DNA of 64,000 nt from a virus, in IMG/VR virus record IMGVR_UViG_3300042387_000948, positions 124,001 to 188,000 of that record. One strand, given 5' to 3'. Position 1 is the first letter of the stretch. Each line of letters starts with the position of its first letter. Positions 1,043 to 57,920 of the stretch are shown piece by piece. Made by a program: the position numbers and the translations under genes. The notes beneath the pieces were generated by a model. That model was not told the origin of the DNA and made no database searches. It was given only the letters and a program-made list of their open reading frames with translations.

Positions 1043-1066
1043 TTTTATATATGTATATATAAATAT
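1043..1066 (-). promoter_or_regulatory. Late-type motif ATATTTAT + TATA stretch
   Basis: ATATTTAT at 1066-1059 is followed by a TATA-rich stretch. It is the same motif found before the structural operons, here about 80 bases upstream of the GT2 start and above the host-type promoter. Confidence 0.5.
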
Positions 1067-1086
1067 AAAGTTTTTGAATAAAACAT

Positions 1087-1120
1087 AAAAAAATGGGTAA
1101 CTTTTTTCAAAATTACCCAT
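1087..1120 (-). terminator. Rho-independent terminator after the collagen-like gene
   Basis: The inverted repeat ATGGGTAA / TTACCCAT (1120-1113 and 1100-1093) has a 12-base loop and is followed on the minus strand by a run of T. It lies 20 bases past the stop of the 1141-2166 gene. Confidence 0.85.
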
Positions 1121-1140
1121 CTTATTTTTCTTATGTTATT

Positions 1141-2166
1141 TTAGTAGAACGGATTCCAATCTAATCCATCATACACATACGGTTTTGGTGTTGGTGAACC
1201 ACTCATAATCAAACTACCAGTTACCGATGGAGTTGGTTTATTACCTACATATTGTGTTAATACTAAAATATTATTTATGTGTAAAGAACCTGATGCTTCT
1301 AAATAAAATACGTTAGGAGATATTACCGCACCACCTGCACCTTCTACATATGTAAAAACACCCCCATTAGTTGTACCGATTGTAGCAACAGACGTACCAG
1401 AACTACCAGAAGTACCGCTTGTACCAGATGTTCCACTTGTACCAGGTAATCCACTAGTTCCATTAAATCCAGATGAACCGGATGTACCATCCGAACCAAA
1501 CCCATTTGTACCATTTGTACCATTTAAACCAGATGTACCAGATGTACCATTACTACCAATACCATTAGTACCATTTGTTCCAGATGAACCGGATGTACCA
1601 GAAGTACCAGCTGCACCAAAAAATCCATTTATACCAGATGAACCTGAAGTTCCTGATGTACCAGTAGAACCAGTTCCACCAGTCACACCACTACTACCAG
1701 ATGTACCAGATGTACCAGATGTACCAGATGTACCAGTAGAACCAGTTCCACTTGTTCCAGAAGTTCCACTTGTTCCAGAAGTACCAGCTCCGCTTGTTCC
1801 AGAAGTTCCACTTGTTCCAGAAGTTCCAGAAGTTCCAAAGTTAGTACCATCTAATCCACTAGTACCACTTGTTCCAGACGTTCCTCGTGTACCACTACTT
1901 CCAGAAGAACCAGAAGTTCCAGAAGTTCCAGAAGTTCCAGAAGTACCGGCAGTACCAGAAGTTCCAGAAGTACCGGCAGTGCCAGCAGTACCCGTTGTAC
2001 CATTTGTTCCAGATGAACCGGATGTACCAGATGTACCGGATGTACCAGATGTTCCCCCAGTACCAGATGTACCAACTCCAATTAATCCATATAAGTAATC
2101 TAAGTTGTCATCCATTTCCAAAGCGGTCAATGGAGCACCTTTTTCTAATCTTTTAACTAATGCCAT
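1141..2166 (-). CDS. Collagen-like repeat protein (probable fibre)
   Basis: A 341-residue protein. Residues 1-30 (MALVKRLEKGAPLTALEMDD, then NLDYLYG) form a short head of the kind seen at the start of phage fibre proteins. Residues about 32-262 are Gly-X-Y triplets dominated by GTS, GSS and GTN, which should form a collagen-type triple helix. The final 80 residues (for example GGVFTYVEGAGG) are non-repetitive and probably form a trimeric tip or attachment domain. A late-type motif precedes the gene and a strong terminator follows it, so it is a single late unit. It sits between glycosyltransferase genes, which suggests its Ser/Thr-rich stalk could be glycosylated (inference). Confidence 0.8.
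   Translation of the reverse strand: MALVKRLEKGAPLTALEMDDNLDYLYGLIGVGTSGTGGTSGTSGTSGTSGSSGTNGTTGTAGTAGTSGTSGTAGTSGTSGTSGTSGSSGSSGTRGTSGTSGTSGLDGTNFGTSGTSGTSGTSGTSGAGTSGTSGTSGTSGTGSTGTSGTSGTSGTSGSSGVTGGTGSTGTSGTSGSSGINGFFGAAGTSGTSGSSGTNGTNGIGSNGTSGTSGLNGTNGTNGFGSDGTSGSSGFNGTSGLPGTSGTSGTSGTSGSSGTSVATIGTTNGGVFTYVEGAGGAVISPNVFYLEASGSLHINNILVLTQYVGNKPTPSVTGSLIMSGSPTPKPYVYDGLDWNPFY
1390..2070 (-). repeat. Gly-X-Y coding repeat block
   Basis: Tandem nine-base units such as GGTACATCTGG on the coding strand encode Gly-Thr-Ser-type triplets. Synonymous codons vary between units, so selection appears to act on the protein repeat and not on the DNA. Confidence 0.85.
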
Positions 2167-2198
2167 ATTCTTATTCTATAAAAATCATTCTTATATGG

Positions 2199-2206
2199 AT
2201 AAATAT
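2199..2206 (-). promoter_or_regulatory. Late-type motif before the collagen-like gene
   Basis: ATATTTAT, followed by CCATATAA, 32 bases upstream of the start codon at 2166. It matches the motif before the tail operons. Confidence 0.6.
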
Positions 2207-2227
2207 AAACAAAAGGGAAATTACGGA

Positions 2228-2698: not shown

Positions 2699-2699
2699 T

Positions 2700-3992: not shown

Positions 3993-3995
3993 AAC

Positions 3996-5384: not shown

Positions 5385-5936
5385 TTATTGTATTGTAATT
5401 TGTATTTTTGTTTTTGTCCCATCGGGTTGTGAATAAACTGCGTATTGAGGTACACATTTTAATTCGGTTTTTACTTTGTTTAACATATCTACATATTTTT
5501 TACCATAGCCAGGTTTTAGATATGCAATAGTTAAATGTGGGTGGTAATCTGGATACGATGTTGTGTGTGGTAGTTTTTGCAATTCTGCATTTGTTTCGTG
5601 CAATGCAGGACCAGATACATCAAACTTTAGTACATCAAATTTTTCGTTTTCAAAAAGTGATGGATTGTATCCTTTGCATTCACCATATCCAAAATTACCC
5701 AATATACCCTTTACATCATCAACTGATACATCGTTGTGTAATCCATATAAAAATGTAGTGTGAGGTTCATCTTCAATACCATATCCACCATTAGTATCTT
5801 CTTCGTAAAGATGCTGTGGATTTATAGCATCCTGAATTTTGAATACTTCTGGTACTGAAAAATACAACATAGCACACCCATAATCATATGTACCTTTTGA
5901 TTCTTTGATTGAATTAAGTAACGTTTTTAATTTCAT
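5385..5936 (-). CDS. 2H phosphoesterase (LigT / 2'-5' RNA ligase-like)
   Basis: A 183-residue protein with the two HxTx signatures of the 2H family, H59-T-T61-F and H134-L-T136-I, about 75 residues apart as expected for the paired catalytic histidines. 2H enzymes hydrolyse cyclic phosphodiesters or 2'-5' linkages. The phage anti-CBASS protein Acb1 belongs to this superfamily and destroys cyclic oligonucleotide alarms, so a counter-defence role is possible here but not shown. RNA repair is the alternative. The N-terminus MKLKTLLNSIKES looks like a short helix ending in I-x-E. It starts five bases after the small RHH-like gene ends. Confidence 0.75.
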   Translation of the reverse strand: MKLKTLLNSIKESKGTYDYGCAMLYFSVPEVFKIQDAINPQHLYEEDTNGGYGIEDEPHTTFLYGLHNDVSVDDVKGILGNFGYGECKGYNPSLFENEKFDVLKFDVSGPALHETNAELQKLPHTTSYPDYHPHLTIAYLKPGYGKKYVDMLNKVKTELKCVPQYAVYSQPDGTKTKIQITIQ

Positions 5937-5940: not shown

Positions 5941-6144
5941 TTAAAATTGTGAACCGCTTATTTGAAGTTGTAAGTACTCATTCATTTCGTTTCTGAAATC
6001 ATCATCTCTAACATATCTTTCCACAGTTCTATTAACTAGCTTTTGTAGTGTTACATCGGAATCAAATGATACTTTTTTGAAACTTGAATACACATCTTTC
6101 AAAATTTTTACGGTTGTCAGTTTTGTGTTTTCATTTTGACCCAT
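5941..6144 (-). CDS. Small ribbon-helix-helix-like DNA-binding protein
   Basis: A 67-residue protein with one predicted strand (LTTVKILKDVY) followed by two helices (SSFKKVSFDSDVTLQKLVN, then RTVERYV), the Arc/MetJ-type ribbon-helix-helix arrangement. Such proteins act as dimeric repressors. It is the first gene after a late-type motif and heads the 2H/glycosyltransferase group, so it may regulate that group. The fold is inferred from pattern only. Confidence 0.5.
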   Translation of the reverse strand: MGQNENTKLTTVKILKDVYSSFKKVSFDSDVTLQKLVNRTVERYVRDDDFRNEMNEYLQLQISGSQF

Positions 6145-6149: not shown

Positions 6150-6180
6150 TTTCGTTTTATATATTTGTATATATAAATAT
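6150..6180 (-). promoter_or_regulatory. Late-type motif before the RHH-like gene
   Basis: ATATTTAT at 6180-6173, followed by ATATACAAATATATAA, 28 bases upstream of the start codon at 6144. Confidence 0.6.
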
Positions 6181-6210: not shown

Positions 6211-7077
6211 TTAAGGTTTACCATCACACAATCCCCTAACAGAGAACTCACACCATTTGCAATTCTTTTTAGCGTTGCCTGGTACTTTTGGATATGGGAT
6301 ATCTCTAAAGTTACCCTCATCATCAAACACAATATCAATGAAACTCATAAACTCATCATATACTTTGTTTACCGATGGAGAACCATTTGGTGGAATATGC
6401 TTTGAAATACGAGGAACAGGATATGGTGAATCTTCAGGAAGTTTCCTACGCATGATTTGGAACTCTACTCTGATTTTTGTTAATGGTATATCAAACAATT
6501 CAGAATAGTATTTCTTATATAATAGAATTTGTGAGTTCTTTAATCTATCTTCCTTTTGATACTTATTCCACCCCATTGTAGAGGTCTTTAAGTCAATGAT
6601 TATGATTGCGTTCTCCGCAATATCTTTTAATACAATATCAATATAACCAATGAAATGTACACCCTTCTTAATCTCTTTATTTAATGGAATCTCAATACCA
6701 ACCAATTCATATCCTGATTTAGAATAAAACTTTCCGATATGTTTCATAAACCATTCTAAAATACGTCTACCATCACCAAAAAACTCTTCTAACTCATCCT
6801 GCGAACAAGGTGTACCCTCACTCATCTTCTCTACCTCTACTTTGTAGTTTTCTCTCATTCTCTCCAATAAGAGTTTATCCACATTGATTTCATCTGCTTG
6901 CTTTTTAGAAACACCATACATAACCGAAAGGTAGTGTTGGATTGTTTCGTGCATAGCCGAACCAAAGATTGTGTGGATGTTAGATGAACTCTCCCCTAAC
7001 TTGTCTATGTAATTCAATTTGTATTGTTGTGGGCAAGAACTCCACATACCATATTGAGAAAAACTAACTCTAGCCAT
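6211..7077 (-). CDS. PD-(D/E)XK nuclease, RecB/Cas4-like, with cysteine cluster
   Basis: A 288-residue protein of the PD-(D/E)XK superfamily (PDDEXK_1 / RecB C-terminal type). It opens with SFSQYGMWSSCPQQYKLNY, has FGSAMHETIQHYL (the conserved His/Glu helix), then GYIDIV and IIIIDLKTS, the D...D-x-K active site. It ends with KKNCKWCEFSVRGLC. With Cys15 near the start, the three C-terminal cysteines match the four-cysteine iron-sulfur cluster of Cas4/AddB-type nucleases. The likely role is as a DNA exonuclease in recombination or host DNA breakdown. It has its own host-type promoter, so early expression is likely. Confidence 0.82.
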   Translation of the reverse strand: MARVSFSQYGMWSSCPQQYKLNYIDKLGESSSNIHTIFGSAMHETIQHYLSVMYGVSKKQADEINVDKLLLERMRENYKVEVEKMSEGTPCSQDELEEFFGDGRRILEWFMKHIGKFYSKSGYELVGIEIPLNKEIKKGVHFIGYIDIVLKDIAENAIIIIDLKTSTMGWNKYQKEDRLKNSQILLYKKYYSELFDIPLTKIRVEFQIMRRKLPEDSPYPVPRISKHIPPNGSPSVNKVYDEFMSFIDIVFDDEGNFRDIPYPKVPGNAKKNCKWCEFSVRGLCDGKP

Positions 7078-7093: not shown

Positions 7094-7125
7094 CAAAGAT
7101 ATGTAAAAATGTTGATAATTCCTAC
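7094..7125 (-). promoter_or_regulatory. Host-type promoter for the PD-(D/E)XK nuclease gene
   Basis: The -7 box TATCTTTG is at 7101-7094, with a 20-base spacer and a weak -33 GTAG followed by GAATT at 7125-7122. The box ends 16 bases before the start codon. Confidence 0.6.
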
Positions 7126-7574
7126 TAAATCCCCAATTTTAATTTTGTTATAATTTTAGGGTCAGTTCCATACATTTCTGCAATCTCTTTTATATGCTCT
7201 TTGCCTGTTTTGGTTGAATATAGTATTTTAAGATACTCTTCCGCTTCCGTATCAGATACTTCGTACTTTCGCATTACTAACTTAACCAACCAATCCTCAT
7301 ACTTTTCAGATGAAGCTGCTTTCATATATTTTAGGAAAGTTCTACTCTTTGGTAGTAATCCAATCAATGCTTTGTAAACTGCTTTTGGTGGTGCTTCCTG
7401 AAGATATGGCTGTACATCTGCTATCAACTCTACCCATTGGGGATTCATTGTCATATAACGGATAATCATATAAGTACTCCATCCTTTTTTATCAGATTCA
7501 TCTAATGTATCCCAAAAGTTAGGGTCTTGTTCATTAGTAATTGCCTTAATGTAATCAAACAATCCTTTTGCCAT
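7125..7574 (-). CDS. Clamp loader small subunit, T4 gp62-like
   Basis: A 149-residue, mostly helical protein. Its centre (PKSRTFLKYM) and the segment RKYEVSDTEAEEYL resemble the KRYQVN...DAINY region of T4 gp62. Its place, three genes below a gp44-type ATPase and in the same operon as the rest of the loader, supports the call. In T4, one gp62 joins four gp44 subunits to load the gp45 clamp. T4 gp62 is 187 residues, so this one is shorter. The start overlaps the upstream stop as TAATG. Sequence similarity is weak, so context carries much of the weight. Confidence 0.65.
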   Translation of the reverse strand: MAKGLFDYIKAITNEQDPNFWDTLDESDKKGWSTYMIIRYMTMNPQWVELIADVQPYLQEAPPKAVYKALIGLLPKSRTFLKYMKAASSEKYEDWLVKLVMRKYEVSDTEAEEYLKILYSTKTGKEHIKEIAEMYGTDPKIITKLKLGI

Positions 7575-8120: not shown

Positions 8121-9065
8121 CTATAATGCGTTTAATATTTGTATAAGTGTTGCTGCCGCAGTTATTTCTTTATCAATTACCAATGCTGATTTATAAGCAC
8201 CATCCCCCAATAAAAGAATTACATTAGCGGTATTTTCTCCAGCATATTCTTCCACTTTATCGTATAGTAAAGTGTATAGTTCCGTAAAATCAGATACCTT
8301 TGAATCAATTAATGCCTGTCTCACATTCATATATTTGTTTCTCTTATCATCATTAGATTTTAAGATATCCAATACTTTGATTTTGTAATCGTTTTCTAAT
8401 AGATTCTGAACATCTACTTTCAACTTTCCTTTGTTAGAGTTAAGTTGACAAGTATTGATAACCTTACGGATATCAGGATATGCAGAATCTATGATAGGTA
8501 CTAAATCCTTAATATCAAATTCAATCTCTTCAGCTTTTAAGATATTACTGATTTGAATTGCCACATCTTTCTTTGTAGGTGGGATGATTTGGAATGTTTG
8601 GCATCTACTTTGGATAGGTTCAATTACCTTCTCTACATAGTTACACGTTAGAATGAATCGGCAGTGTGCGGAAAACGTTTCCATTAAGTTACGCAAGATT
8701 GCCTGTGCATTGTGAGTCATATAATCAAACTCATCCAAAATGATAATCTTAAATGGTTTGAATCCCATAGAAGATGCAAAGTTGGTTACTTTGTTACGGA
8801 CTGTATCTACGTTGTTCTCCGATGATGCATTGATAATCATATAATCACATTCGATTGAATTTACGATTAACTTTGCTAATGTAGTTTTACCAGTACCAGC
8901 TCTACCATACAATAACAAATGTGGTACATCTCCACTTTCTAAATAACCCTCTACTTTGGCTTTTAGGTGGTCATTACCTACATACTCCGATAACTTAGAG
9001 GGTCTGTGTCGTTCCACCCATAAGCTATTGTTTACTTTTTCTTTTGTTTGTTCTATAAAAGACAT
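8121..9065 (-). CDS. Clamp loader large subunit (AAA+ ATPase), T4 gp44-like
   Basis: A 314-residue AAA+ protein. It has Walker A GRAGTGKTT at about 54-62, Walker B IIILDEFD at 107-114, a sensor 1 segment ending LTCN, and the SRC motif (153-155) that marks clamp-loader ATPases and provides the arginine finger. The family box WVERHRPSKLSEYVG opens the protein. With gp62 it would open and load the sliding clamp for PolB. Length equals T4 gp44 (319). It lies between dUTPase and the zinc-ribbon genes. Confidence 0.95.
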   Translation of the reverse strand: MSFIEQTKEKVNNSLWVERHRPSKLSEYVGNDHLKAKVEGYLESGDVPHLLLYGRAGTGKTTLAKLIVNSIECDYMIINASSENNVDTVRNKVTNFASSMGFKPFKIIILDEFDYMTHNAQAILRNLMETFSAHCRFILTCNYVEKVIEPIQSRCQTFQIIPPTKKDVAIQISNILKAEEIEFDIKDLVPIIDSAYPDIRKVINTCQLNSNKGKLKVDVQNLLENDYKIKVLDILKSNDDKRNKYMNVRQALIDSKVSDFTELYTLLYDKVEEYAGENTANVILLLGDGAYKSALVIDKEITAAATLIQILNAL

Positions 9066-9497: not shown

Positions 9498-9804
9498 GTG
9501 TAAATAATTTTTGTTTTTGTTGCATTTCTCTACCTTTCTCTGTCATCTCTCTTGCAAATATCTTAAACACCTTCCCATCATTATGGGTAAATGTTATATT
9601 TGAATGTTCATTATTAGATATAGTGAATTGAACTTGTGGTTCATCATCACCCATATTTTCATCCGTCCATGCAAATACTTGTGGTTGGTTATCATCAAAT
9701 TGAAAACACCACTCACACTCTTCGTATTTATTTGGTTGTTTTATATTGATTGATTGTTTTGGAGAATATTCAATATCCTCAAATAACTCTAATTGTTTTC
9801 CCAT
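9481..9804 (-). CDS. Acidic protein of unknown function
   Basis: A 107-residue protein I do not recognise. It has a paired CEWC (residues 30-33) and an acidic, beta-like centre (FAWTDENMGDDEPQVQFTIS), then a Lys/Gln-rich C-terminal helix. It overlaps the start of dut by 17 bases, and its own start overlaps the stop of the 404-residue gene as TAATG. It belongs to the clamp-to-clamp-loader operon. Confidence 0.6.
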   Translation of the reverse strand: MGKQLELFEDIEYSPKQSINIKQPNKYEECEWCFQFDDNQPQVFAWTDENMGDDEPQVQFTISNNEHSNITFTHNDGKVFKIFAREMTEKGREMQQKQKLFTHESKN

Positions 9805-11018
9805 TATCGTCCTACTTCTTTTAAATATTTTGCTTTGAATTCATCCCAACCCATACCTATACCTTCAATATAGAATAGATGTTCGGGCTTAATTCTACCT
9901 TCATCATACAACTTAGAATATCTACTAATTGCATGTTTTTTCCACCATTTGTTAATGTAATCAATACCTTGCTCAAATTTAGGTTTCAATACCAACGCAT
10001 CTTCTTCAATTTGCTTACATAAGAACTCTCTTCCGTTTTCATACATCATAGCAAGATATACACCCCTCTTAAATCCGTGATGATATTCGTTTGCTTTGAT
10101 ACCACACTCTTTGAAGATTTGACCTAATATCTTTTGTTTAATACCACTTACAGGTCCATTAGCTTCATAACCCATATTAGCACCATTACGAGCTCTTTCA
10201 TCTGATATATTTTGCTTATACCATTCTGCTCTGTTTTCCTTTAACCATTGATGCCACGGGTCATAGAATTTATCATCCGGCTTTAAACTAATCTTACCAG
10301 CCGATTCTCCTAATGTTTTGAAAAGTGGAATACCATTATATTGTGAGTGAATACCATACAAAGATGTTGTACCAACTGCTACAAGAGTTTGACCATACTT
10401 TGTTTTCCAATGGTTTCTAACTTCAGGAACAGTAGTCATCATAGCAACTAACTTACCACCTAAGAAGTTATATCCTAATGGCTGTGTACATACAATAGTA
10501 GATGCTATTGTAGTATGATTTAACTTACCATCAACAAACTTATTATCTTTACTCCAACCAATGAAATTATCTCTAACCCCCATTGAAGTAACATCAGATG
10601 CCAATGAAATTTGTCCCAACAACTTTCCACTCACTCTATCTTTCACATTAATCTTAACATTTCTACCAGGGTTTGCTGTAAAATCCATTGTGTGAATCAT
10701 CCTACGGATTTGTGCCCATTTAGTAGATTCTTTTGGATTATCATCTACAATCTCAACATAAGGGTCTAACGATTCAATTTCTTTTATCGTTAGCTCCTTA
10801 TTGTTGATATCAGTTGGCTTCCATTGTAAATCATAATATGTAGCTATAAGGGATTTATCTTTAATCATTGTATCTCCCTGTAATTCTACCCATTTTTTGT
10901 ATAGAGTTTGTTCCTCCACACTCATAGTAAGTAGGTAATCCATATTTTCTATTAGATTTGCCTTCTCTCTATCAAAGTCAAATACAGGTTTTTCCGGTTC
11001 ACTATCCCAAAAGCTCAT
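9804..11018 (-). CDS. DUF4338 (DruA)-like protein
   Basis: A 404-residue protein. Residues about 120-245 follow the pattern I associate with DUF4338, the domain of Druantia DruA. A G-Q-I-S-L-ASD strand is followed by RDNFIGWSKD, a KLNHT helix, a CTQPLGYNFLGGKL segment, VRNHWKTKYG, then LVAVGTTSLYG and FKTLGESAGK. The flanking parts are charged and helical, and HHGFKRGVY plus a Trp-rich region follow. The family match is from memory and not certain. The gene lies within the replication operon between clamp and dUTPase, so a DNA-related role in replication or modification is likelier than defence. Confidence 0.5.
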   Translation of the reverse strand: MSFWDSEPEKPVFDFDREKANLIENMDYLLTMSVEEQTLYKKWVELQGDTMIKDKSLIATYYDLQWKPTDINNKELTIKEIESLDPYVEIVDDNPKESTKWAQIRRMIHTMDFTANPGRNVKINVKDRVSGKLLGQISLASDVTSMGVRDNFIGWSKDNKFVDGKLNHTTIASTIVCTQPLGYNFLGGKLVAMMTTVPEVRNHWKTKYGQTLVAVGTTSLYGIHSQYNGIPLFKTLGESAGKISLKPDDKFYDPWHQWLKENRAEWYKQNISDERARNGANMGYEANGPVSGIKQKILGQIFKECGIKANEYHHGFKRGVYLAMMYENGREFLCKQIEEDALVLKPKFEQGIDYINKWWKKHAISRYSKLYDEGRIKPEHLFYIEGIGMGWDEFKAKYLKEVGR

Positions 11019-11941: not shown

Positions 11942-11973
11942 CAAAGATACAAATATTTTGTGAATATTCCAAC
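11942..11973 (-). promoter_or_regulatory. Host-type promoter for the clamp operon
   Basis: The -7 box TATCTTTG is at 11949-11942, with a 20-base spacer and -33 GTTG followed by GAAT at 11973-11970. The -33 box touches the stop codon of the polymerase gene. The leader to the clamp start is about 40 bases. Confidence 0.7.
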
Positions 11974-14495
11974 TAAAAAGAGAAAAACTTTTCAGCTGTT
12001 TTTTGTGAGGAAAGAACCTCACCCCAACCCAATGCTCCATAGAAATCCTCTAACTTCTTTAGTAATTCCCTTTCAAAGATTTTATCATAATCGATGTAAG
12101 TTTTTACCAAATCCATAATTTGGTCTGAATCCTCATATCCCTTAAATCCCAACCCATCCAAACCATATGGATTTTGCTTTAGATATACCCACTTAATTTT
12201 ATCACCATCTTTCATTGGTTCGCAGGTATTTTGTATATTAAAGTGAGCTATTAGTTGGTTATGTGCAATTGCTGCCTTAACGTGCGCCGGAGTTCCACTA
12301 TTGAATTGAAACATTGCTCTATTATCCTTTTTCTTTGGTATGTATTTAGATAACTCTTTAACTGCTGAATTCTTAGCGATTGAAGTTACATCCATATTAA
12401 CTAAATCCTTTTTGAAATCATGTATCTTATCAGTTAGTACATCTTCCGTTTCACCTTTTAGAATATCAATTAGGATACCACTCATAAACTTACGGAATTG
12501 TGCAGGATATGATGAACGAACCACATCCAATCCTTTAACATCCAATCTATCGCATGGAATACCATTTTCCGCAATAATCCATTGTGCATATCGTTTCTTA
12601 GCAATCCAAATACCTGATTTAGATACAAACTCTTTTTTGATTTGGAATCTATGTTTGGTTTTATCTACATTGAATACTCTTTCCGATAATACATCATAAA
12701 AGTTATTTAAGAAATCCTGCGTTTCACCAGCAATTGTATCTACTTTCAATGCAATTTCAGTATCATTATCAGCTTTCCAATTCTCATATCTATGGTCTAA
12801 TATAGGTACTGCTGAAAAGAATACCGAATCCGTATCAATGTATATGTTGAAATCCTGTCCGGTTGTTCCTAACTCTTTATTGTATTTAATATTAGCCATA
12901 TCAGCCGTAGATTTAATTACAGTTTGACCTGTTGTTGTTACAGCTTCTGCATTATCAACATCATAGAAACGGAACGCAGGTAATCCCAATACTCCATATA
13001 ATGAGTTCAATAAAATCTTTTGTACTAACTGTCTTTTCTTATAGAATGCATATTTTTCTTTATCACCACTCTCACCAAATTGTTTTTCCAACTTACGGAA
13101 CTCCACACGTTGAGAGAACCACAAATCTAAAATATCAGGGATACAACCAGCTTTATCGGTTCTATACATTACACCATTAGATGATACCGAATACTTACTT
13201 TCTTCTAATAGTTTCTTTAAGTTTTCTTTTGATATCGTTCGGTTTCCAATAAAAAACTCATCAATTTCACCCTTCATATACTTTTGAGCATCCCAATTAT
13301 CAATCTTAGCTACCTTTGTTTCAGGTGATATGTTAAGAGTCATAATGATGGATGGGTATAGTGATGTTAAGTCCAAGTCATATATCCAATCATACTTACC
13401 AACGATAGGTGCTTTTACATATGCCCCAATAAATTTCTCTTGGTCATTATCTCTTAATGCCTGCATCCTTTCTTGTCTATCCGCAGGTTTGTTAGGTGCT
13501 ACAATGTTCTTTCTCTTTAAGTAAGTTAATAGTGCTCCCTCCAAATACTTTGATGAATAAACGAAATCTTCGTATGGAACGTGTCCAGCGTGGCAGATAC
13601 CCCTAGCAGTATCAATGAATTGTAGTTTTGCATCCATATCTACAACTAACTGAACATCCACTAAGTTATACTCAATAAACTTTTCAATATCATCTCTGAA
13701 TAGGATATCCAAATTACCTTTGTATTCAATCTTACCTCTACCCAACTCTCTCATTGCAATACTATCCAAACGATAGTTATCCAACTCCGTATATGTAAAG
13801 TTTTTGTACAATCCTAAATAATCCAAATAGGATACCCCCGCCATAAAGAATCTCTTACGATATGGTGACCAGAAACATTCTCCAATAGGTGATAATCGAT
13901 TAGCATGTTTTTGACCCAACACCCTCTTAATACGATTGTATAAATAAGGTGTATCAAAGTAATCAATGTTCCAACCTGTAACGATTGTGGGATTAATATA
14001 CTCATATAAATCTAAGTATTTAAGTATCATATCCCTCTCATCCACAAATGGAATTACAATTGCCGTATCGGTTTTCTTCTCCACCATCTTACCGCTCTTA
14101 TCCATAATAAGGACATAGTATTGGTCAGCTGCTGAATCATGTAAACCAATTGCGGTTAATTCATTTTCAGCTTTTTCAGTATCCGGCAATCCCGTCTCCA
14201 TCTCACACTCAATATCGTATGTTAAGATAACGTGCCCCTCCGATGGAACATCTGAATCCGTATAAGTATCAACCAATACTCTAGTAGTTTCGGCAACATC
14301 TGATTCAAACAAATTAGGGTCATCTCCCTTAAATTTGTATATTTTTGTTAGTTTATCACCATATAAAGATGTGTAATCACCTCTTTCGGCTTTTTCATAC
14401 GCATAACGAGTGTAAGGAAAACTTCTGTATCCCTGAACATCATCCCAAATGTGCACTAAATTCTTTTCTCTCTGATAATATACGTTCTGGTACAT
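11973..14495 (-). CDS. Replicative DNA polymerase, family B (T4 gp43-like)
   Basis: An 840-residue polymerase with proofreading. The exonuclease motifs are YDIE (93-96), NIDYFD (176-181) and YNLVD (276-280). The polymerase motifs are A, DLDLTSLYPSII (373-384), B, KKRQLVQKILLNSLYG (486-501), and C, YIDTDS (552-557) with both catalytic aspartates. The SLYPSII core and DTDS are diagnostic of family B. The C-terminus (TAEKFFSF) carries a short hydrophobic tail of the kind that binds the clamp. Length is close to T4 gp43 (898). The clamp, clamp loader and dUTPase follow downstream. Confidence 0.96.
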   Translation of the reverse strand: MYQNVYYQREKNLVHIWDDVQGYRSFPYTRYAYEKAERGDYTSLYGDKLTKIYKFKGDDPNLFESDVAETTRVLVDTYTDSDVPSEGHVILTYDIECEMETGLPDTEKAENELTAIGLHDSAADQYYVLIMDKSGKMVEKKTDTAIVIPFVDERDMILKYLDLYEYINPTIVTGWNIDYFDTPYLYNRIKRVLGQKHANRLSPIGECFWSPYRKRFFMAGVSYLDYLGLYKNFTYTELDNYRLDSIAMRELGRGKIEYKGNLDILFRDDIEKFIEYNLVDVQLVVDMDAKLQFIDTARGICHAGHVPYEDFVYSSKYLEGALLTYLKRKNIVAPNKPADRQERMQALRDNDQEKFIGAYVKAPIVGKYDWIYDLDLTSLYPSIIMTLNISPETKVAKIDNWDAQKYMKGEIDEFFIGNRTISKENLKKLLEESKYSVSSNGVMYRTDKAGCIPDILDLWFSQRVEFRKLEKQFGESGDKEKYAFYKKRQLVQKILLNSLYGVLGLPAFRFYDVDNAEAVTTTGQTVIKSTADMANIKYNKELGTTGQDFNIYIDTDSVFFSAVPILDHRYENWKADNDTEIALKVDTIAGETQDFLNNFYDVLSERVFNVDKTKHRFQIKKEFVSKSGIWIAKKRYAQWIIAENGIPCDRLDVKGLDVVRSSYPAQFRKFMSGILIDILKGETEDVLTDKIHDFKKDLVNMDVTSIAKNSAVKELSKYIPKKKDNRAMFQFNSGTPAHVKAAIAHNQLIAHFNIQNTCEPMKDGDKIKWVYLKQNPYGLDGLGFKGYEDSDQIMDLVKTYIDYDKIFERELLKKLEDFYGALGWGEVLSSQKTAEKFFSF

Positions 14496-18582: not shown

Positions 18583-18614
18583 CAAAGTTACAAAATTAAT
18601 TTGATATTTCCAAA
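18583..18614 (-). promoter_or_regulatory. Host-type promoter, leaderless start
   Basis: TTTG at 18614-18611, 20 bases, TAACTTTG at 18590-18583, then TACT and the ATG at 18578. The promoter lies over the end of the upstream Mom-like copy 2 gene. The box-to-ATG distance predicts transcription starting at the start codon. Confidence 0.75.
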
Positions 18615-27320: not shown

Positions 27321-27328
27321 ATAAATAT
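27321..27328 (-). promoter_or_regulatory. Late-type motif before gp32
   Basis: ATATTTAT followed by ATAGG, downstream of both host-type gp32 promoters and 68 bases before the start codon. It could keep gp32 expressed late. Confidence 0.45.
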
Positions 27329-27338: not shown

Positions 27339-27370
27339 CAAAGATACGAAGAATATTTGATAATACCAAA
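27339..27370 (-). promoter_or_regulatory. Host-type promoter 1 of the gp32 operon
   Basis: TTTG at 27370-27367, 20 bases, TATCTTTG at 27346-27339. It is an exact match to the Bacteroidota consensus and lies about 86 bases before the gp32 start. Confidence 0.8.
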
Positions 27371-28614: not shown

Positions 28615-28636
28615 ATTTATTATATACTATAAATAT
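28615..28636 (-). promoter_or_regulatory. Late-type motif before the 373-residue gene
   Basis: ATATTTAT at 28636-28629, then AGTATATAATAAAT, 23 bases upstream of the start codon at 28605. One of the best copies of the motif. Confidence 0.65.
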
Positions 28637-30015: not shown

Positions 30016-30023
30016 ATAAATAT
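30016..30023 (-). promoter_or_regulatory. Late-type motif before the endolysin operon
   Basis: ATATTTAT followed by TTATGAATAAG, 29 bases upstream of the start codon at 29986. Confidence 0.5.
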
Positions 30024-33666: not shown

Positions 33667-33683
33667 GTATATACTATAAATAT
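33667..33683 (-). promoter_or_regulatory. Late-type motif before the secreted nuclease
   Basis: ATATTTATAGTATATAC, with its core 27 bases upstream of the start at 33648, in the 41-base gap after the PolA-like gene. Confidence 0.65.
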
Positions 33684-34976: not shown

Positions 34977-34980
34977 TTTA

Positions 34981-35425: not shown

Positions 35426-35457
35426 CAAATATACGATAAATATTTGTAATTTCCAAA
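35426..35457 (-). promoter_or_regulatory. Host-type promoter of the tmRNA
   Basis: TTTG at 35457-35454, 20 bases, TATATTTG at 35433-35426. The box ends 19 bases before the mature 5' end, leaving a short leader for RNase P to remove. Confidence 0.8.
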
Positions 35458-44121: not shown

Positions 44122-44140
44122 GGTTATATATAATAAATAT
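44122..44140 (-). promoter_or_regulatory. Late-type motif of the tape measure/baseplate operon
   Basis: ATATTTATTATATATAACC, with its core 21 bases upstream of the start at 44111, just past the terminator of the chaperone pair. Confidence 0.65.
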
Positions 44141-44180: not shown

Positions 44181-44392
44181 CCTGCTTTTGATTTACTTTG
44201 TGCAGCTTTCATTTCATCTGCTTCTTTCTTTTTGATATCAACTAATTTTTTAAAATAAAATTTTCTAAGATGTATTGGCATCGTATAAACTTCTGTCCAA
44301 TTGAATCCATTACCAAAATGAACCATTTCCCAAATTTGATTATGAAGTGTTGTTTTATAATCAATTGGCAGGGTAAAAAAAGCTAACCCCAA
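44162..44392 (-). CDS. Tail chaperone extension read by frameshift
   Basis: A frame of 76 codons whose upstream part overlaps the end of the gp26-like gene by 32 bases. It has no ATG near its beginning: the first possible start is TTG at 44392, and the first ATG is 22 codons in. It therefore looks like the downstream half of a frameshift fusion, as in the G/GT tail chaperones of other phages. The product has WEMVHFGNGFNWTEVYTMPI and MPIHLRKFYFKKL followed by a Lys-rich tail. The position just before the tape measure operon fits that role. Confidence 0.7.
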   Translation of the reverse strand: MGLAFFTLPIDYKTTLHNQIWEMVHFGNGFNWTEVYTMPIHLRKFYFKKLVDIKKKEADEMKAAQSKSKAGKVRMR

Positions 44393-45152
44393 ATGGGATA
44401 TCTAACGCCTCCGTTTCGCCTGTTATATCTGATGTAAATTCGAATTTTAAGTCTAAATCTGGACTAATTTCTCTAACATATTTTCTAAATGCTTTTGTAT
44501 CTAATGCTAAAAATCCATTTTGAATCCATTTGTTAATAAATCCACCATCCTTATTACCATCTACTGATAAAATCATATATCTAAACCGAGTAGTTACATC
44601 AAAAGATGTTGTGTTTTTTGTTTTATTTACTCTTTCCAATGCTTGATTATCTTTATTAATATCCTGCTCATCACCATGCGTTAATAACTTAAATTCAATT
44701 ACCTTTTTACTTTGTGGTAATGTAAATTTGTACACATTTTCGGCGTTTAATACAGATTCATCAACATCTTTTGTTTGTACTTTTGATAAATCAATTGTAA
44801 CTTCTTGCTTTTCGGATGTAAATGGGTCAGTAATTTCAACCGTATAATCAGCCCCATATCCTAAAATACGAGTAGCCAATAGAATTGCGTTTTTATCACC
44901 AATGAAAATATCATTTATATTTACACCAGGTTCAACAACAACCGATTCAAATAACTTATCTAACACAATACCTTTTTTAATTAAATTTTGAGATGCTAAG
45001 ATATCTTCTTCTCTTGCTGTCATATATTTTATTTCAACCGTTCCTTTACTCAAAGGGTTATCTTTTGAATATACCAATCCTCTTGATGGTAATTCTATAA
45101 TTTCGGTTGGAAATTCAAATTTACTTGTAGTTGCATTTGCACTTTCTGCCAT
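44361..45152 (-). CDS. T4 baseplate protein gp26-like / tail assembly chaperone
   Basis: A 263-residue protein matching the T4 gp26-type family (T4_baseplate). The opening FPTEIIELPSRGLVYSKDNP, then VEIKYMTAREEDIL and GDKNAILLATRILGYG are its typical blocks. A mid-protein LLTHGDEQDI and the C-terminal beta segment follow. It sits between the tube gene and the tape measure operon and probably has a frameshift extension. The start context is AAAGTTATG. Confidence 0.78.
   Translation of the reverse strand: MAESANATTSKFEFPTEIIELPSRGLVYSKDNPLSKGTVEIKYMTAREEDILASQNLIKKGIVLDKLFESVVVEPGVNINDIFIGDKNAILLATRILGYGADYTVEITDPFTSEKQEVTIDLSKVQTKDVDESVLNAENVYKFTLPQSKKVIEFKLLTHGDEQDINKDNQALERVNKTKNTTSFDVTTRFRYMILSVDGNKDGGFINKWIQNGFLALDTKAFRKYVREISPDLDLKFEFTSDITGETEALDIPFGVSFFYPAN
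44375..44381 (-). other. Candidate programmed frameshift site (T7 run)
   Basis: In the gp26-like frame the codons read AGC TTT TTT TAC CCT. The downstream frame reads GCT TTT TTT ACC CTG, which is +1 (equivalently -2) relative to it. The seven-T run allows slippage, and the zero-frame stop (TGA) is only five codons further on. Confidence 0.6.
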
Positions 45153-45180
45153 AACTTTAATAATTTAGTTTTATATATAT

Positions 45181-45188
45181 ATAAATAC
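45181..45188 (-). promoter_or_regulatory. Late-type motif variant before the gp26-like gene
   Basis: GTATTTAT followed by ATATATATATAA, 28 bases upstream of the start at 45152. It differs from the core in its first base. Confidence 0.5.
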
Positions 45189-45263: not shown

Positions 45264-45755
45264 TTAATATTCCAAAATAGCGTAATCGTAAGCTATTTCT
45301 AATGTAATATCGGCAGGGTCAGTAGCGTTTGACCAATCCAAGTCTCCAAAATTTGCATTTACTATAAATGCTCCTTTAAGAGTCCATTGTTCAATTACAT
45401 CACCAACAGGTCCTAACATTTTACAAGTTATATCTTTTTTGTAAAAATCAGCATAACCTCTTCTACCAGTGATTGATTCGTGTCCTAAACGTACCCACTC
45501 CATTACAGCTTGAGCCGCAGATGGAACAATAGGGTCAATAAGTGTAAATGTTACGTTAGACCACTCACCCTTTCCTTGCAACTTTCTTTTTATATTAATA
45601 TGGTCTAATGTTACCGTTTCAAATGCAATAGTCGGTCTTTGCGCCACTTTAATAGTATATGCTTGAAGCCCGTCTACATCAATTGTAAAACGATGCTTCA
45701 TTTTAGGTTCGAAGTTCGTATAGAACATCTTGTCAAACTCTAGTATCTCTGCCAT
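45264..45755 (-). CDS. Tail tube protein, T4 gp19-like
   Basis: A 163-residue protein, the same length as T4 gp19 (163), which stacks as hexamers inside the sheath. The pattern of the family is clear: FEPKMKHRFTIDVDGLQAY, FETVTLDHINIKRKLQGKGEW, VTFTLIDPI, and a final ITLEIAYDYAILEY strand. It is a single late unit with its own motif and terminator, as expected for a protein made in large amounts. Confidence 0.92.
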   Translation of the reverse strand: MAEILEFDKMFYTNFEPKMKHRFTIDVDGLQAYTIKVAQRPTIAFETVTLDHINIKRKLQGKGEWSNVTFTLIDPIVPSAAQAVMEWVRLGHESITGRRGYADFYKKDITCKMLGPVGDVIEQWTLKGAFIVNANFGDLDWSNATDPADITLEIAYDYAILEY

Positions 45756-45782: not shown

Positions 45783-45790
45783 ATAAATAT
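45783..45790 (-). promoter_or_regulatory. Late-type motif before the tail tube gene
   Basis: ATATTTAT followed by TAATAACAAAATAG, 27 bases upstream of the start at 45755. Confidence 0.6.
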
Positions 45791-45812: not shown

Positions 45813-48131
45813 TTAAGCGTTAAACGATGCTCCAGTTGGTAAGATGTTGAAATCAATTACGATGAATTCAGCTGTCTTAGCCGGTTGTAAAAATATTTGT
45901 CCTGCTAATACATTTCTATCTATTACATCAGGAGTATTGTTAGTTTCATCCATCACTACTTTGAATGCGTATAAACCTTGTCTTTGTTGAATTGCTTCGA
46001 AATAAGGGTTTACAGTGTTTAAGAATCTATTTCTAGTCGTTGTAGTGTTTTGTTCAAACAATAGGTAACGAGACGTAGATGCGATGAATTTCTTAACAGT
46101 GATTAATAATCTTCTTACGTTGATTCTATCCAATGCTGATGCTTTATCTTGCAATGTCTTCTGTCCGAATGCTACAATACCTTGTCCAGGGAATGAAGCG
46201 ATTGGATTAACTTTGTTTTCGTATAAAGTATCTCTTTCAGAATGTGTTAATCTATTCAATACACTAATTGCTCCAGTGATACCACCTCTATTTAAACCAG
46301 CAGGTGCGAACCATTCTGCTGCCAATCTATCATTAGCTGCAAACACTCCAGGTAATAATACTGAAGGTGGAACACTCATTATTTTATTATTATTATTGTC
46401 AATTGTCTTAACCCAAGGGTAGTAAGTTGCTACATAGTTTGAATCTACTGAATTAGATTGTAAAGTAGTATCTGCTATATCGGAATCAGCTTCACTAAAG
46501 TCAGCTATGTAGAATGTATCTTGTCTATCTTCAACCATATCAATAACCTTAGTAGTTACCGATGGGTGTAGAGAACGAATGATACCAGGAGTTACAACTA
46601 AGTTAATATCATACTCATCCGGATTAGATACAGCGTTTATTGCTTTGAAATATGCAGTTGTACCAGATGATGCTCCATTTGAACAATCAAATCCTTGCGT
46701 ATTTTGTTGAGTGATATCAGTTCCAAGTGCTTTAGCTACCGTTGGGTTCATACCATCGTATCCACCTTGCAATGCTAATACAAACTGTCTTTTAACCATA
46801 TCTGCCGAATTTGAGCCCGTCATTTGATAATTTAATTGAGAATCAAACGCAAATGTTACGTTAGAACCAGTTTGTGCATTTGCAGGAAGTGGTTTTAAAT
46901 ATTGTTTGTTATCAATTGCCACACCAACAGTTTCAAAATCAAATCCAGAATAATATAATGGAGATGATGATGTATTTCCAGTTGAGCTTGTTTGTAATGT
47001 TATAGCAGGTACTAATAACGATTCTGCAGCATTTGTTGCTGTAATTGGGTTTGTATATGCCCCATGTCCAAAAGGTGCTGCTGATATAGGGAATGAACCC
47101 TGAGCTGCTACTTCAACTCTAATATATTTTGAACGATTTTGGTAATCACCATTTTCAGTAATTTTACCATCTTGATTTAATGTAATAAATCTATCACCAA
47201 TTCTTCTTGCAATATAATTTGTAGAAGCAGGGTCTAAGTTTACATTATTAAATGTTTCAAAAACTACTTTTCTTTTATCAGTATCAGAGTATGAACGAAC
47301 AGTTACAGTAAATGTTGAATAATCCGTTGCTCCATCTTCGCCAGCTGCCTTAACATTAGAGATACCAATTTTAAATTTAGTATTATAAACATTACCATGT
47401 CCTAATGTGTGGAAACTGAATAGAGGATATCTAACACCACTAATATCTTGAGATACTACAAATGGTGTTGATGCTACACTTGCCTCATATGCATAATCTT
47501 GAGTTGGTAATACAACTCTAGTTATTACAATGTTATTTCCAGCAGAACCTGTGTAGAATGATGCCAAATTCTCAAAATAAGAATGTACATATGCTGCTTT
47601 ACTTCCAAATGGTGATTCACCAAATACATCAGCTAAATCGTTTGTTGCGGTTGGTAATATTGATGCGGATACGTTTGTACCAGCAACCAATGCATTGATT
47701 ACAAAAGAACCATCTAATGCATCATTACTAACTATACTTGCTCCAGTAAATCCAACACCCTCATCACCAGCTGCAGTTGAGTGTAATACACCAATTAGTT
47801 TAGTTCCTACTGATTGTGCCGATGAACCAGAAGCAAATATTGCTAAAGGTGCTACTTGAGAATATCCAGCAGTACCAGCTACCCTTACAATAGTTGCTGA
47901 ACCAGCTTCTCTAAGGTAGTTTTGTACTGCATATTCAGTATAATATGTCCCATCAGGTGTACCGAAGATATCTTCAAATTCTGATTGAGTTCTTACAATC
48001 GTTGGTACGAATGCCGGTCCTTGCTTAAAAGGTCCTATAAATGCTGCTCCGATTTCACCGATTCCTTGCGCTAAGAAGGATAAATCGTTTTCTCTTGTGA
48101 ATACACCGGGTGATACAATTCTTTCTGCCAT
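45813..48131 (-). CDS. Contractile tail sheath protein, T4 gp18-like
   Basis: A 772-residue sheath subunit. The N-terminus (RIVSPGVFTRENDLSFL) is the handshake arm typical of sheath proteins, followed by GEIGAAFIGPFKQGPAFVPT. The C-terminal domain has ERDTLYENKVNPIASFPGQG, the QGIVAFGQKTLQ strand and INVRRLLITVKKFI, the most conserved sheath region that packs on the tube. T4 gp18 is 659 residues; the extra length is in the central variable domains. It shows that the virion is a myovirus. Confidence 0.95.
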   Translation of the reverse strand: MAERIVSPGVFTRENDLSFLAQGIGEIGAAFIGPFKQGPAFVPTIVRTQSEFEDIFGTPDGTYYTEYAVQNYLREAGSATIVRVAGTAGYSQVAPLAIFASGSSAQSVGTKLIGVLHSTAAGDEGVGFTGASIVSNDALDGSFVINALVAGTNVSASILPTATNDLADVFGESPFGSKAAYVHSYFENLASFYTGSAGNNIVITRVVLPTQDYAYEASVASTPFVVSQDISGVRYPLFSFHTLGHGNVYNTKFKIGISNVKAAGEDGATDYSTFTVTVRSYSDTDKRKVVFETFNNVNLDPASTNYIARRIGDRFITLNQDGKITENGDYQNRSKYIRVEVAAQGSFPISAAPFGHGAYTNPITATNAAESLLVPAITLQTSSTGNTSSSPLYYSGFDFETVGVAIDNKQYLKPLPANAQTGSNVTFAFDSQLNYQMTGSNSADMVKRQFVLALQGGYDGMNPTVAKALGTDITQQNTQGFDCSNGASSGTTAYFKAINAVSNPDEYDINLVVTPGIIRSLHPSVTTKVIDMVEDRQDTFYIADFSEADSDIADTTLQSNSVDSNYVATYYPWVKTIDNNNNKIMSVPPSVLLPGVFAANDRLAAEWFAPAGLNRGGITGAISVLNRLTHSERDTLYENKVNPIASFPGQGIVAFGQKTLQDKASALDRINVRRLLITVKKFIASTSRYLLFEQNTTTTRNRFLNTVNPYFEAIQQRQGLYAFKVVMDETNNTPDVIDRNVLAGQIFLQPAKTAEFIVIDFNILPTGASFNA

Positions 48132-48190: not shown

Positions 48191-48198
48191 ATAAATAT
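48191..48198 (-). promoter_or_regulatory. Late-type motif before the sheath gene
   Basis: ATATTTAT followed by ATGTGTAA. It lies 59 bases upstream of the start at 48131, farther than in most other operons. Confidence 0.5.
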
Positions 48199-50013: not shown

Positions 50014-50412
50014 TTAATTAGTTGGTGTTAGTGGTTGTGGTGTTACACTAGAACCGCTTGTTGGTGACCATGGTAAATTAACATCACTAACTTCCGCAAT
50101 AGACAATTTACTTCTATTGATTTGTTTATCCATTTGTCCTTGAATATGGTCCCAATAATTTGTTACAGCCGAACTACTTACCGTATGTTTAATCCACCCT
50201 AATACTTGAGTTTCAGTTAAATTAGCATATTCAATGAAACTACCCGTATCAATTGTTTTTAAATCAAATGGAGTTGCTCCACTAAATTCACCAGTATTTC
50301 CATCCATATCGGTACAAATCACTTTCCATCTAGTTCCAATAACAGCATCATTGATACTATCGGAAGTTGCTTTTTTAATACCTGTTACAGACCATTCGTA
50401 GGTATATCCCAT
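50014..50412 (-). CDS. Small tail-associated protein, paralog B
   Basis: A 132-residue protein: YTYEWSVTGIKKATSDSIND, then TRWKVICTDMDGNTGEFSGA, PFDLKTID and LTETQVLGWIKHTV. This arrangement is widespread beside tail fibres in T4-like phages (DUF7936 type, from memory). A Pro/Thr/Ser tail ends the protein. It heads an operon of five genes (50412 to 48285) behind a late motif. Confidence 0.65.
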   Translation of the reverse strand: MGYTYEWSVTGIKKATSDSINDAVIGTRWKVICTDMDGNTGEFSGATPFDLKTIDTGSFIEYANLTETQVLGWIKHTVSSSAVTNYWDHIQGQMDKQINRSKLSIAEVSDVNLPWSPTSGSSVTPQPLTPTN

Positions 50413-50422: not shown

Positions 50423-50444
50423 GTTTATTATATATTATAAATAT
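50423..50444 (-). promoter_or_regulatory. Late-type motif before the small tail-protein operon
   Basis: ATATTTATAATATATAATAAAC, core 50444-50437, 24 bases upstream of the start at 50412. Confidence 0.65.
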
Positions 50445-56400: not shown

Positions 56401-57200
56401 TAAGTTACTTTTAATTCAGTTGCGTTTATTGTACCACCAACACTTAAATTTCCAGTTATTGTTTCATTACCAGTGATGGTTTGATTTCCAATCACACTTG
56501 AATTACCCACTAAAGTTTGAGAACCAGTTATTCTTAGTGCACCAGATATAAAAGTTGAACCACTTATATCAAATTGAGTTGTTGGTGTTTTTCTTATACC
56601 AACATTTCCACCACCATTTGCTAAAATTACATTAGATGTTGATGCCCTATTAAGATATAAATCTACATTTGTTGAATCTATTCTACCATTAGATGGTGTA
56701 ATTGCAATTGTTCTACCATTAGTAGTTGCGGTTATTGAAATTGAAGTATCGGGTGCGTTTACATTAATACCACCACTAACTATGTTTAAATTTCCACCAT
56801 TTATGTTTTCACTACCACTAATATTTAATGAACCACTTATCGTTGTATTTGTATTTACAACTAATCCTAAATTTGGTGAAATTACTGCTTGTGCTGAACC
56901 TGATTTAATTCTATCCAAATCACCAATTGAAGATGCATTGATATTCGTTAAACCACTACCATTTCCTGTAAATAATGATGCCGATACTGAACCACTAAAT
57001 TGTGAATTTGCATTTATTTGTAATGTTGCTCCGTTTGGAGTCCCAATTTGATAAGTTTGTACGGCCGAACCACTTAGTTTACCAACAACACTTACCGATT
57101 CTGAAGTAGCAGTTAAAATAGATGAACCACTTACAAAAAGTGATACACTATTTACACTATTTTGATTTAACCCATTGGGACTTTTACCGTTGAACTCCAT
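50472..57200 (-). CDS. Giant tail fibre with collagen-like stalks and S74 chaperone
   Basis: 2242 residues. The first 330 are fibre-type GSL/ISGS repeats. Three Gly-X-Y blocks follow, separated by a repeated module ([14 protein letters not shown], then [18 protein letters not shown], then [20 protein letters not shown], then [15 protein letters not shown]). The last 650 residues hold five copies of a xxFYDSxDTGYYxDP motif. The C-terminal 93 residues are an S74 intramolecular chaperone (SSIRYKENV, then [16 protein letters not shown], then [15 protein letters not shown]), which trims itself off after trimerisation. The serine just before I-R-Y-K is the likely cleavage residue. This is the main host-recognition fibre candidate. 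Confidence 0.88.
52840..53150 (-). repeat. Gly-X-Y coding repeat block (fibre, third stalk)
   Basis: Tandem Gly-Thr-Ser, Gly-Ala-Ser and Gly-Ser-Ser triplets. Residue order varies more here (GASGASG) than in the other blocks. Confidence 0.85.
54275..54725 (-). repeat. Gly-X-Y coding repeat block (fibre, second stalk)
   Basis: Tandem GTSGTSG / GSSGSSG coding units with GTRGTSG interruptions by charged triplets. Confidence 0.85.
55125..56190 (-). repeat. Gly-X-Y coding repeat block (fibre, first stalk)
   Basis: The longest collagen-like block of this fibre, about 350 residues of Gly-Thr-Ser/Gly-Ser-Ser/Gly-Gly-Thr triplets with few GVTGAGG and GTNGTAG variants. Confidence 0.85.
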
Positions 57201-57219
57201 TCAATTATGTTTTTTTATT

Positions 57220-57552
57220 TTATGTCAATTCTAATATTGAAACAATCACATCTGCTGAATTAGCTAATGAGGATGTTACCGAAAGTAAATCATTTGCTTC
57301 CATTACCACTTTTTGTTCTCCACCAACTAATACCGTTGAACCACCCTGTACAATTAAAGCATCTTTTACTAAAAATACTGCTTTATTTGCCGAAGTATCT
57401 CTCAACATTACACTAACCGATATGTTTTGTGAAGCTACATTAGCCACATTTACACCAATTACCGTTGTTGTAGTTGCAGATGGTACAGTGTACACCCCAA
57501 CTCCCGTTGAACCAATTGAACCAGTTATACTATTTTTAAATATATTTGCCAT
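57220..57552 (-). CDS. Small virion protein of fibre cluster
   Basis: A 110-residue beta-sandwich-like protein: NSITGSIGSTGVGVYTVPSA, TTVIGVNVANVASQNISVSV, then STVLVGGEQKVVMEANDLL and a final VIVSILELT. This pattern occurs among small fibre-associated proteins of marine T4-like phages. The exact role is unknown. It lies 19 bases upstream of the giant fibre gene and shares its late operon. Confidence 0.6.
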   Translation of the reverse strand: MANIFKNSITGSIGSTGVGVYTVPSATTTTVIGVNVANVASQNISVSVMLRDTSANKAVFLVKDALIVQGGSTVLVGGEQKVVMEANDLLSVTSSLANSADVIVSILELT

Positions 57553-57558
57553 CTTTTT

Positions 57559-57888
57559 TTATCCTAATGCAATAGCAAAAGCTAATGCGGTATCTAATAC
57601 GTTTACACCATCTACTTGAAATTGTCCTCCATCAATTACATTTATACTACCTTGAACTTGCTCCGAACCACTTATAAACACAGAACCAGTAATTCTTTGT
57701 CTATCCGTTGATAATGTACCAACAGTTATTGTTCTTGTAACTGTTAAGTTTTCAAAAGTAGCAGTATTTACTTCAATTTGACCTTTAAATGAACCAGTAA
57801 AAGACCCAGTGAATGAACCACTTAAATTTGCATAGGCATTTGCCGATTGAATTATCGAACCCGAAAATATGGGACTTTGTATTTTCAT
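57559..57888 (-). CDS. Short fibre-like protein
   Basis: A 109-residue protein with repeated GSF/GSI steps (LSGSFTGSFTGSFKGQIEV, then ITGSVFISGSEQVQGSINV). This is the same beta-helical repeat style as the first 330 residues of the giant fibre. It may be an adaptor or short whisker on the fibre. It is the first gene of the late operon leading into the giant fibre. Confidence 0.6.
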   Translation of the reverse strand: MKIQSPIFSGSIIQSANAYANLSGSFTGSFTGSFKGQIEVNTATFENLTVTRTITVGTLSTDRQRITGSVFISGSEQVQGSINVIDGGQFQVDGVNVLDTALAFAIALG

Positions 57889-57904
57889 TTAATAGTTTGT
57901 AATG

Positions 57905-57920
57905 TTATAGATATAAATAT
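57905..57920 (-). promoter_or_regulatory. Late-type motif before the giant fibre operon
   Basis: ATATTTATATCTATAA, core 57920-57913, 24 bases upstream of the start at 57888. Confidence 0.6.

Follow-up and report, generated by a model that had tools for sequence, protein, structure and literature searches.

The DNA analysed here (the window; 64,000 nucleotides) comprises bases 124001-188000 of a 207,029-bp linear IMG/VR contig, IMGVR_UViG_3300042387_000948. The contig belongs to a T4-superfamily myovirus with a T4-type DNA polymerase, clamp and clamp loader, a gp32-like single-stranded DNA (ssDNA)-binding protein, a contractile sheath, a gp19-type tube and a gp26-type hub. Genes were called from open reading frames (ORFs) within this analysis, and the minus strand holds 235 of the 238 called in the contig. 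The genome is 34% GC, and its start codons have an A-rich upstream context with no Shine-Dalgarno signal, as is likewise the case in Bacteroidota (PMC6847099). Ahead of many of these genes lies a short AT-only box, ATATTTAT(A), and we consider it probable that this box, with its core TATTTATA, is the -10-like element of late promoters in a large T4-superfamily lineage that infects Bacteroidota, read by a phage-encoded sigma factor.

A first-pass annotation of the window had listed twelve minus-strand copies of the octamer (at 2206, 6180, 28636, 30023, 33683, 44140, 45790, 48198, 50444, 57920, 1066 and 27328), each of which is exactly ATATTTAT, and a variant at 45188, which is GTATTTATA and retains the core TATTTATA. 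Four further minus-strand copies are present at 29892, 35443, 36440 and 48833; those at 29892, 36440 and 48833 lie within genes and are probably due to chance. Counted on the two strands together, the bare octamer shows no significant excess in the window (20 observed, 15.5 expected; 18 of 100 shuffles reach 20), and for that reason raw enrichment was not used as evidence. The significance of the octamer comes instead from strand and location. On the minus strand of the window, where intergenic DNA makes up 3.7% of bases, 13 copies are intergenic and 3 coding, against 1 and 3 on the plus strand; the corresponding figures for the contig are 34 and 11 against 3 and 6, and for ATATTTATA 26 and 4 against 0 and 1. 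Dinucleotide shuffles of the contig's intergenic DNA lead one to expect 5.2±2.2 copies, compared with 34 on the gene strand (z=13) and 2 counted antisense in the same test. The intergenic placement first reported therefore holds at both scales, and equal frequency in coding DNA or on the plus strand was looked for and not seen. Placement ahead of transcription units was borne out as well: 26 of 90 unit-first genes have a box at most 80 nt upstream, compared with 3 of 129 internal genes (Fisher p=9e-9). Distances from the end of the box to the ATG range from about 14 to 77 nt and peak at 17-33 nt across the contig. That the octamer points with the genes is true and, taken alone, trivial; with 235 of 238 genes on one strand orientation by itself is uninformative, and the intergenic, unit-start and relatives tests were made for this reason.

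The TATA-rich run described after the octamer is real but loose: only an A at +8 is favoured (0.76-0.79), and beyond it the DNA is AT-rich with no fixed motif, most positions downstream of the box being 72-98% AT against a background that is also AT-rich. A fixed ATATTTATANTATA element was considered and rejected: the genome has just 4 copies of it, and the TATA run is accordingly no constant component of the box. Upstream of the late box we found no conserved -33/-35 column comparable to the TTTGG of the host-type class described below. De novo k-mers of upstream regions gave TATATTTATA and, separately, GTATCTTTG / GTATATTTG. Genes preceded by the box include those for fibre, sheath, tube, hub, head completion and a nuclease, and it is from this gene content that we take the promoters to be late.

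The box is conserved in related viruses. Upstream of the tail-tube gene, ATATTTAT is intact in 28 of 28 distinct sequences from IMG/VR relatives (matches 71-100% identical in protein), 18-29 nt before the ATG, and the flanks diverge. A set of 52 non-redundant late-gene loci has 188 sense-intergenic boxes and 4 antisense-intergenic ones, with a box-to-ATG peak of 20-29 nt, the metagenome loci being mutually related so that per-locus counts are not independent events. In the cultured Flavobacterium phage immuto (vB_FspM_immuto_2-6A, NC_055915), [AC]TATTTATA stands before terL (terminase), gp20 (portal), PhoH, sheath, tube, hub and tape measure; ATATTTATA is intergenic 15 times and coding once on its gene strand, and the first A of the box is often C (CTATTTATA). 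Immuto also has a separate early-looking promoter class, AGTTGC..TATATTTAGGTATC, whose 16 sites (for example at record position 71002) share an unusually long element, AGTTGC(C/T)-N-TATATTTAGGTATCAATAATTAAAACA, conserved beyond the expected start. Microcystis phage Mel-JY01, the nearest relative by DNA polymerase (50.7%), carries ATATTTAT before tube, portal and other genes, but Shine-Dalgarno-like sequences are present there. This phage encodes ribosomal protein bS21 (L013:22183-22410) and uses Shine-Dalgarno-like leaders, and many IMG/VR relatives have AGGAG ahead of the tube ATG, unlike the present phage; both features are possibly linked to the way in which Bacteroidota ribosomes hide the anti-Shine-Dalgarno sequence.

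A second promoter class in the same genome has the form TTTGG-N19-GTATCTTTG, with TTTGG or TTAGG upstream at fixed spacing. The housekeeping promoter of Flavobacterium johnsoniae is TTTG / TAnnTTTG, and its G-5 is nearly invariant in Flavobacterium promoters (PMC6847099); judged by its sequence, the second class is of this Bacteroidota housekeeping type. TAnnTTTG together with a -33 TTTG is found in this class and not in the late box. Host-type promoters precede gp45, the PD-(D/E)XK nuclease gene, a PolA-like gene, the transfer-messenger RNA (tmRNA) gene and the operon of the sigma factor discussed below, and the gp32-like gene carries both classes. At the polymerase (early) loci of relatives, host-type GTAnnTTTG occurs 89 times sense-intergenic versus 26 late boxes, and at their tube loci the host-type class is nearly gone (1 copy). 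In some cases the called ATG follows only 3-4 nt after the end of a host-type -7 element (genome positions 19843, 158981, which is window position 34981, and 55896), hinting at leaderless messages or mis-called starts. The tmRNA itself lies at window positions 35027-35406 on the minus strand (Rfam RF00023, 99.6 bits, E=1e-37) and has the predicted tag ADVELSTMTFGDAMAWMESFDYAVAA.

A candidate reader of the box was found by motif search outside the window, at genome positions 12423-13172, as a 249-aa protein carrying ...HMFKEGRGKAFSYFSIVAKNHLI..., which was set against the corresponding T4 gp55 segment. Searches for gp55 with single-sequence phmmer (T4 and S-SM2 gp55), with PHROG 234, 12791 and 19643, and with Pfam Sigma70_r2 had not detected one. 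A profile-profile comparison with gp55 (129-sequence alignment) gave E=1.3e-6 and a score of 47.5, colinear over 98 columns, compared with scores of at most 25.3 in 60 column-shuffled controls. The predicted structure consists of two helical domains (mean pLDDT 75.9, about 90 over residues 11-50 and 71-100), and its best PDB fold matches are sigma factors in 50 of 50 cases, provided that RPSH, RPSB and RPSD are counted as the names under which UniProt lists sigma H, B and D of B. subtilis. Profile alignment and fold matches both support homology to sigma region 2, and we regard the protein as a candidate divergent gp55-type sigma factor. The -10 pocket of T4 gp55 is formed by N13, L54, R57, F86, H95, Y97 and T99 (PMC7892883); by profile alignment F86 and Y97 are kept as F81 and Y91, T99 is replaced by the similar S93, and N13, R57 and H95 are not kept, with cyanophage S-SM2 gp55 also having F at position 95. 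The second helical domain (residues 137-224) has a helix-turn-helix-like end, a departure from the gp55 family, which lacks sigma region 4 and leaves its role to gp33; this C-terminal part has no match to gp33.

Relatives of the candidate sigma are 39.5% identical in immuto and 41.9% in Mel-JY01, and IMG/VR holds 179 found by its own search and at least 600 of the immuto type. Neither a host link, sought in bacterial genome contigs, nor relatives of the Mel-JY01 sigma were found. The box tracks the type of sigma: TATTTATA lies before 45 of 399 ORF starts near sigmas of the present phage's own type and 61 of 598 near immuto-type sigmas, versus 0 of 223 near T4/cyano-type gp55. The C-terminus of own-type sigmas is an acidic-hydrophobic tail (for example NDFWEEEYLYE or DEDEFFSY) that resembles the hydrophobic-acidic clamp-binding epitope of T4 gp55. 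Such a tail is absent in immuto and Mel-JY01, and because Mel-JY01 has a clamp, the correlation of tail with clamp is imperfect. A host-type promoter at genome position 13469 stands at the head of the sigma operon, as would fit a factor made before the late genes.

The proposal that a gp55-like factor reads the box as a late promoter specific to the phage thus draws support, all of it at the level of sequence, from placement, conservation in relatives and in immuto, the separate host-type class and the gp55-type sigma gene. From these we infer the late timing, start sites, sigma-box recognition and clamp role in the following scheme. The phage sigma would be made from its host-type promoter and would take the place of the housekeeping sigma on the RNA polymerase of the host. 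Its region-2 domain would read TATTTATA with no need of a -33 element, the AT-rich DNA directly downstream would melt, and transcription would begin some 6-8 nt beyond the box, so that virion, lysis and some other late genes would have short leaders. If T4 is a guide, this sigma holoenzyme is probably activated by the gp45 clamp. More tentatively, a single two-domain sigma may do both the gp55 job (region 2, reading TATTTATA) and the gp33 job (a region-4-like domain on the polymerase flap), and in the immuto branch late transcription may have been uncoupled from the sliding clamp and hence from replication; we hold this extension to be possible and somewhat doubtful.

Several observations weigh against the scheme. 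Immuto has box and sigma, yet gp45, gp44 and gp62 are not detectable in it, which means that not every phage of the group can rely on activation by the clamp. Boxes also stand before some small unknown genes dispersed over the early-looking 60-100 kb region. The genes for gp17, gp20, gp21 and gp23 are absent from the contig, which is presumably incomplete. Dedicated searches found no gp33, and no Pfam or PHROG family recognises the candidate sigma. Among the Foldseek matches none attains E<=0.001, and TM-scores normalised to the query do not exceed about 0.3, low values that follow from an uncertain domain arrangement.

Three other explanations have to be set beside a phage sigma. The box could be a variant of the host -7 element, TAnnTTTG with A in place of the final G, and its reader could be the housekeeping sigma of the host, with no phage-specific reader at all. 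TATATTTA fits TAnnTTT, the base preceding ATATTTAT is T in 64-68% of sites, and the early-looking class of immuto has TATATTTAGG with AGTTGC upstream, so that a TTTA ending is possible in a host-like promoter. We nevertheless judge this unlikely, given the near-invariance of G-5 in Flavobacterium promoters (PMC6847099), the absence from the late class of a strong TTTGG element such as the host-type promoters of this genome carry, the separation of the two classes by gene function, the breaking of the TAnnTTT register by immuto's CTATTTATA, and the phage's own sigma gene.

With the reader still a candidate, the box might also be the site of a DNA-binding activator, either MotA-like or another late activator, acting with the host sigma and not a sigma -10 element; a fixed box at a fairly constant distance from the ATG would suit such a site too. 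The middle promoters of T4 work in this way. An activator is a still less probable explanation here: the sequence past the box has no conserved -7 element of host type, the AT-rich DNA just past it and the 20-30 nt to the ATG fit a -10 element, and a gp55-type sigma is present. Least credible is that the box serves in the leader or in translation, or that it merely reflects AT-rich composition ahead of starts in an AT-rich genome that has no Shine-Dalgarno signal. GC content, the A-rich start context and a raw octamer count near expectation all point that way, but the intergenic shuffles, the strand asymmetry, the restriction to unit-first genes, the variable distance to the ATG and the exact conservation of the octamer beside diverging AT-rich flanks already refute it, unless the box should prove to lie within the leader RNA. 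The late boxes in the window, for which we prefer the phage-sigma reading, are listed with the host-type promoters and clamp genes in Table 1.

Table 1 Putative late boxes, host-type promoters and clamp genes in the window
Feature	Position	Strand	Context
Host-type promoter TTTGG...GTATCTTTG	1000..1031	-	before gene 349-981
Late box ATATTTATA	1059..1066	-	tandem with host-type promoter 1000-1031; upstream of gene 349-981
Late box	2199..2206	-	32 nt ahead of tail-fibre gene 1141-2166
Late box ATATTTATA	6173..6180	-	28 nt ahead of gene 5941-6144
Host-type -7 element TATCTTTG	7094..7101	-	before PD-(D/E)XK nuclease gene 6211-7077
gp62-like clamp loader	7125..7574	-	phrog_225, E=2.4e-15
gp44-like clamp loader	8121..9065	-	phrog_168, E=1.2e-80
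gp45-like sliding clamp, 231 aa	11206..11901	-	phrog_223, E=4.8e-14; expected co-activator in a T4-type late system
Host-type -7 element TATCTTTG with TTGG -33 element	11942..11949	-	before gp45 sliding-clamp gene
Late box ATATTTATA	27321..27328	-	68 nt ahead of gp32-like ssDNA-binding protein gene 26416-27252; downstream of two host-type promoters
Host-type -7 element	27339..27346; second one 27419-27426	-	before gp32-like gene
Late box ATATTTATAGTATATA	28629..28636	-	23 nt ahead of gene 27484-28605
Late box	30016..30023	-	29 nt ahead of gene 29561-29986
Late box ATATTTATAGTATATA	33676..33683	-	27 nt ahead of DNA/RNA non-specific endonuclease gene 33019-33648
Host-type -7 element TATATTTG with TTTGG -33 element	35426..35433	-	before tmRNA
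ATATTTAT copy, role doubtful	35436..35443	-	within spacer of the tmRNA's host-type promoter
Late box	44133..44140	-	21 nt ahead of gene 43920-44111, first of unit with 41064-43916
Variant late box GTATTTATA	45180..45188	-	ahead of gp26-like baseplate hub gene 44361-45152
Late box	45783..45790	-	27 nt ahead of tail-tube gene 45264-45755; octamer intact in 28/28 distinct relatives
Late box ATATTTATA	48191..48198	-	59 nt ahead of tail-sheath gene 45813-48131
Late box ATATTTATAATATATA	50437..50444	-	24 nt ahead of gene 50014-50412 (weak lysozyme-like match in immuto)
Late box ATATTTATA	57913..57920	-	24 nt ahead of gene 57559-57888

Other genes of the window, all on the minus strand, also drew our attention. 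Two adjacent Mom-family proteins (17473-18273 and 18596-19369; PF25680, E about 1e-44) suggest, by their homology, DNA base modification. A DruA-like protein (Druantia DruA, PF14236, E=1.5e-20) is encoded at 9804-11018 within the replication gene cluster, and the product of 5385-5936 weakly matches anti-CBASS Acb1 and 2'-5' RNA ligase-like families, under the curated cut-off. A family-A-like DNA polymerase fragment (33690-35003; phrog_17, E=4e-13) is homologous to the first 'DNA polymerase family A' ORF of the immuto record; the phage also has a T4-type family-B gp43.

In the open literature searched we found no published late promoter or late sigma for Bacteroidota T4-like phages, and no paper that describes TATTTATA as a promoter of phages. 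Coasts, lakes and guts all count Bacteroidota among their main bacteria, and hundreds of viral contigs, from a large group with few cultured members, carry the pair of box and sigma. With this pair, late genes of the lineage could be called by a simple rule, and names are suggested for 'hypothetical' proteins of a cultured Flavobacterium phage. It also makes directly testable how the T4 late system became adapted to a polymerase with a -7 element, TAnnTTTG, unlike that of E. coli, and whether the sliding clamp is needed.

Comparison with known systems places the box among these promoters as follows. The Bacteroidota housekeeping promoter is used by the phage's second class, and the late box differs from it in having A-T-A for G and no -33 element. 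Immuto has the same box before its late genes and a sigma (KNV73_gp118) annotated only as hypothetical; it differs from the present phage in its family A DNA polymerase, in having no detectable gp43/44/45/62 and in a sigma without the acidic-hydrophobic C-terminal tail. In T4, late transcription depends on gp55, gp33 and gp45 (PMC2988020, PMC7892883), and the late promoter is TATAAATA, which occupies -13 to -6, lacks a -35 element and is followed by AT-rich DNA (PMC2988020). The present system shares with it a single 8-bp AT-only -10-like box with no -35/-33 element, AT-rich DNA just past the box, use before virion genes, the presence of gp45/44/62 and an encoded gp55-related sigma. The octamer is not TATAAATA, which on the gene strand is not used (4 sense versus 167 antisense intergenic copies at tube loci). 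The first-pass annotation had noted that the core is the reverse complement of TATAAATA, which is correct, and had on that ground set the box apart from T4, which does not stand: on the same strand TATTTATA and TATAAATA are identical at 6 of 8 positions (T-A-T-.-.-A-T-A), the central AA being TT in TATTTATA, so that the simplest reading is a variant T4-type box and not an inverted one. Other differences from T4 are the 249-aa length of the sigma and its extra C-terminal helical domain, the lack of a gp33 among our search results and a host polymerase of the Bacteroidota type. Lineage-specific variation of the T4 late box is also known from cyanophages S-PM2 and Syn9, where it is NATAAATA (PMC2984593), and from Aeh1 (PMC2988020). 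Those boxes vary mainly at the first one or two positions, whereas the present one is changed in its centre, and its sigma (no PHROG match) is far more diverged than theirs. Judged by sequence, the box looks like a further lineage-specific variant of the T4 late system.

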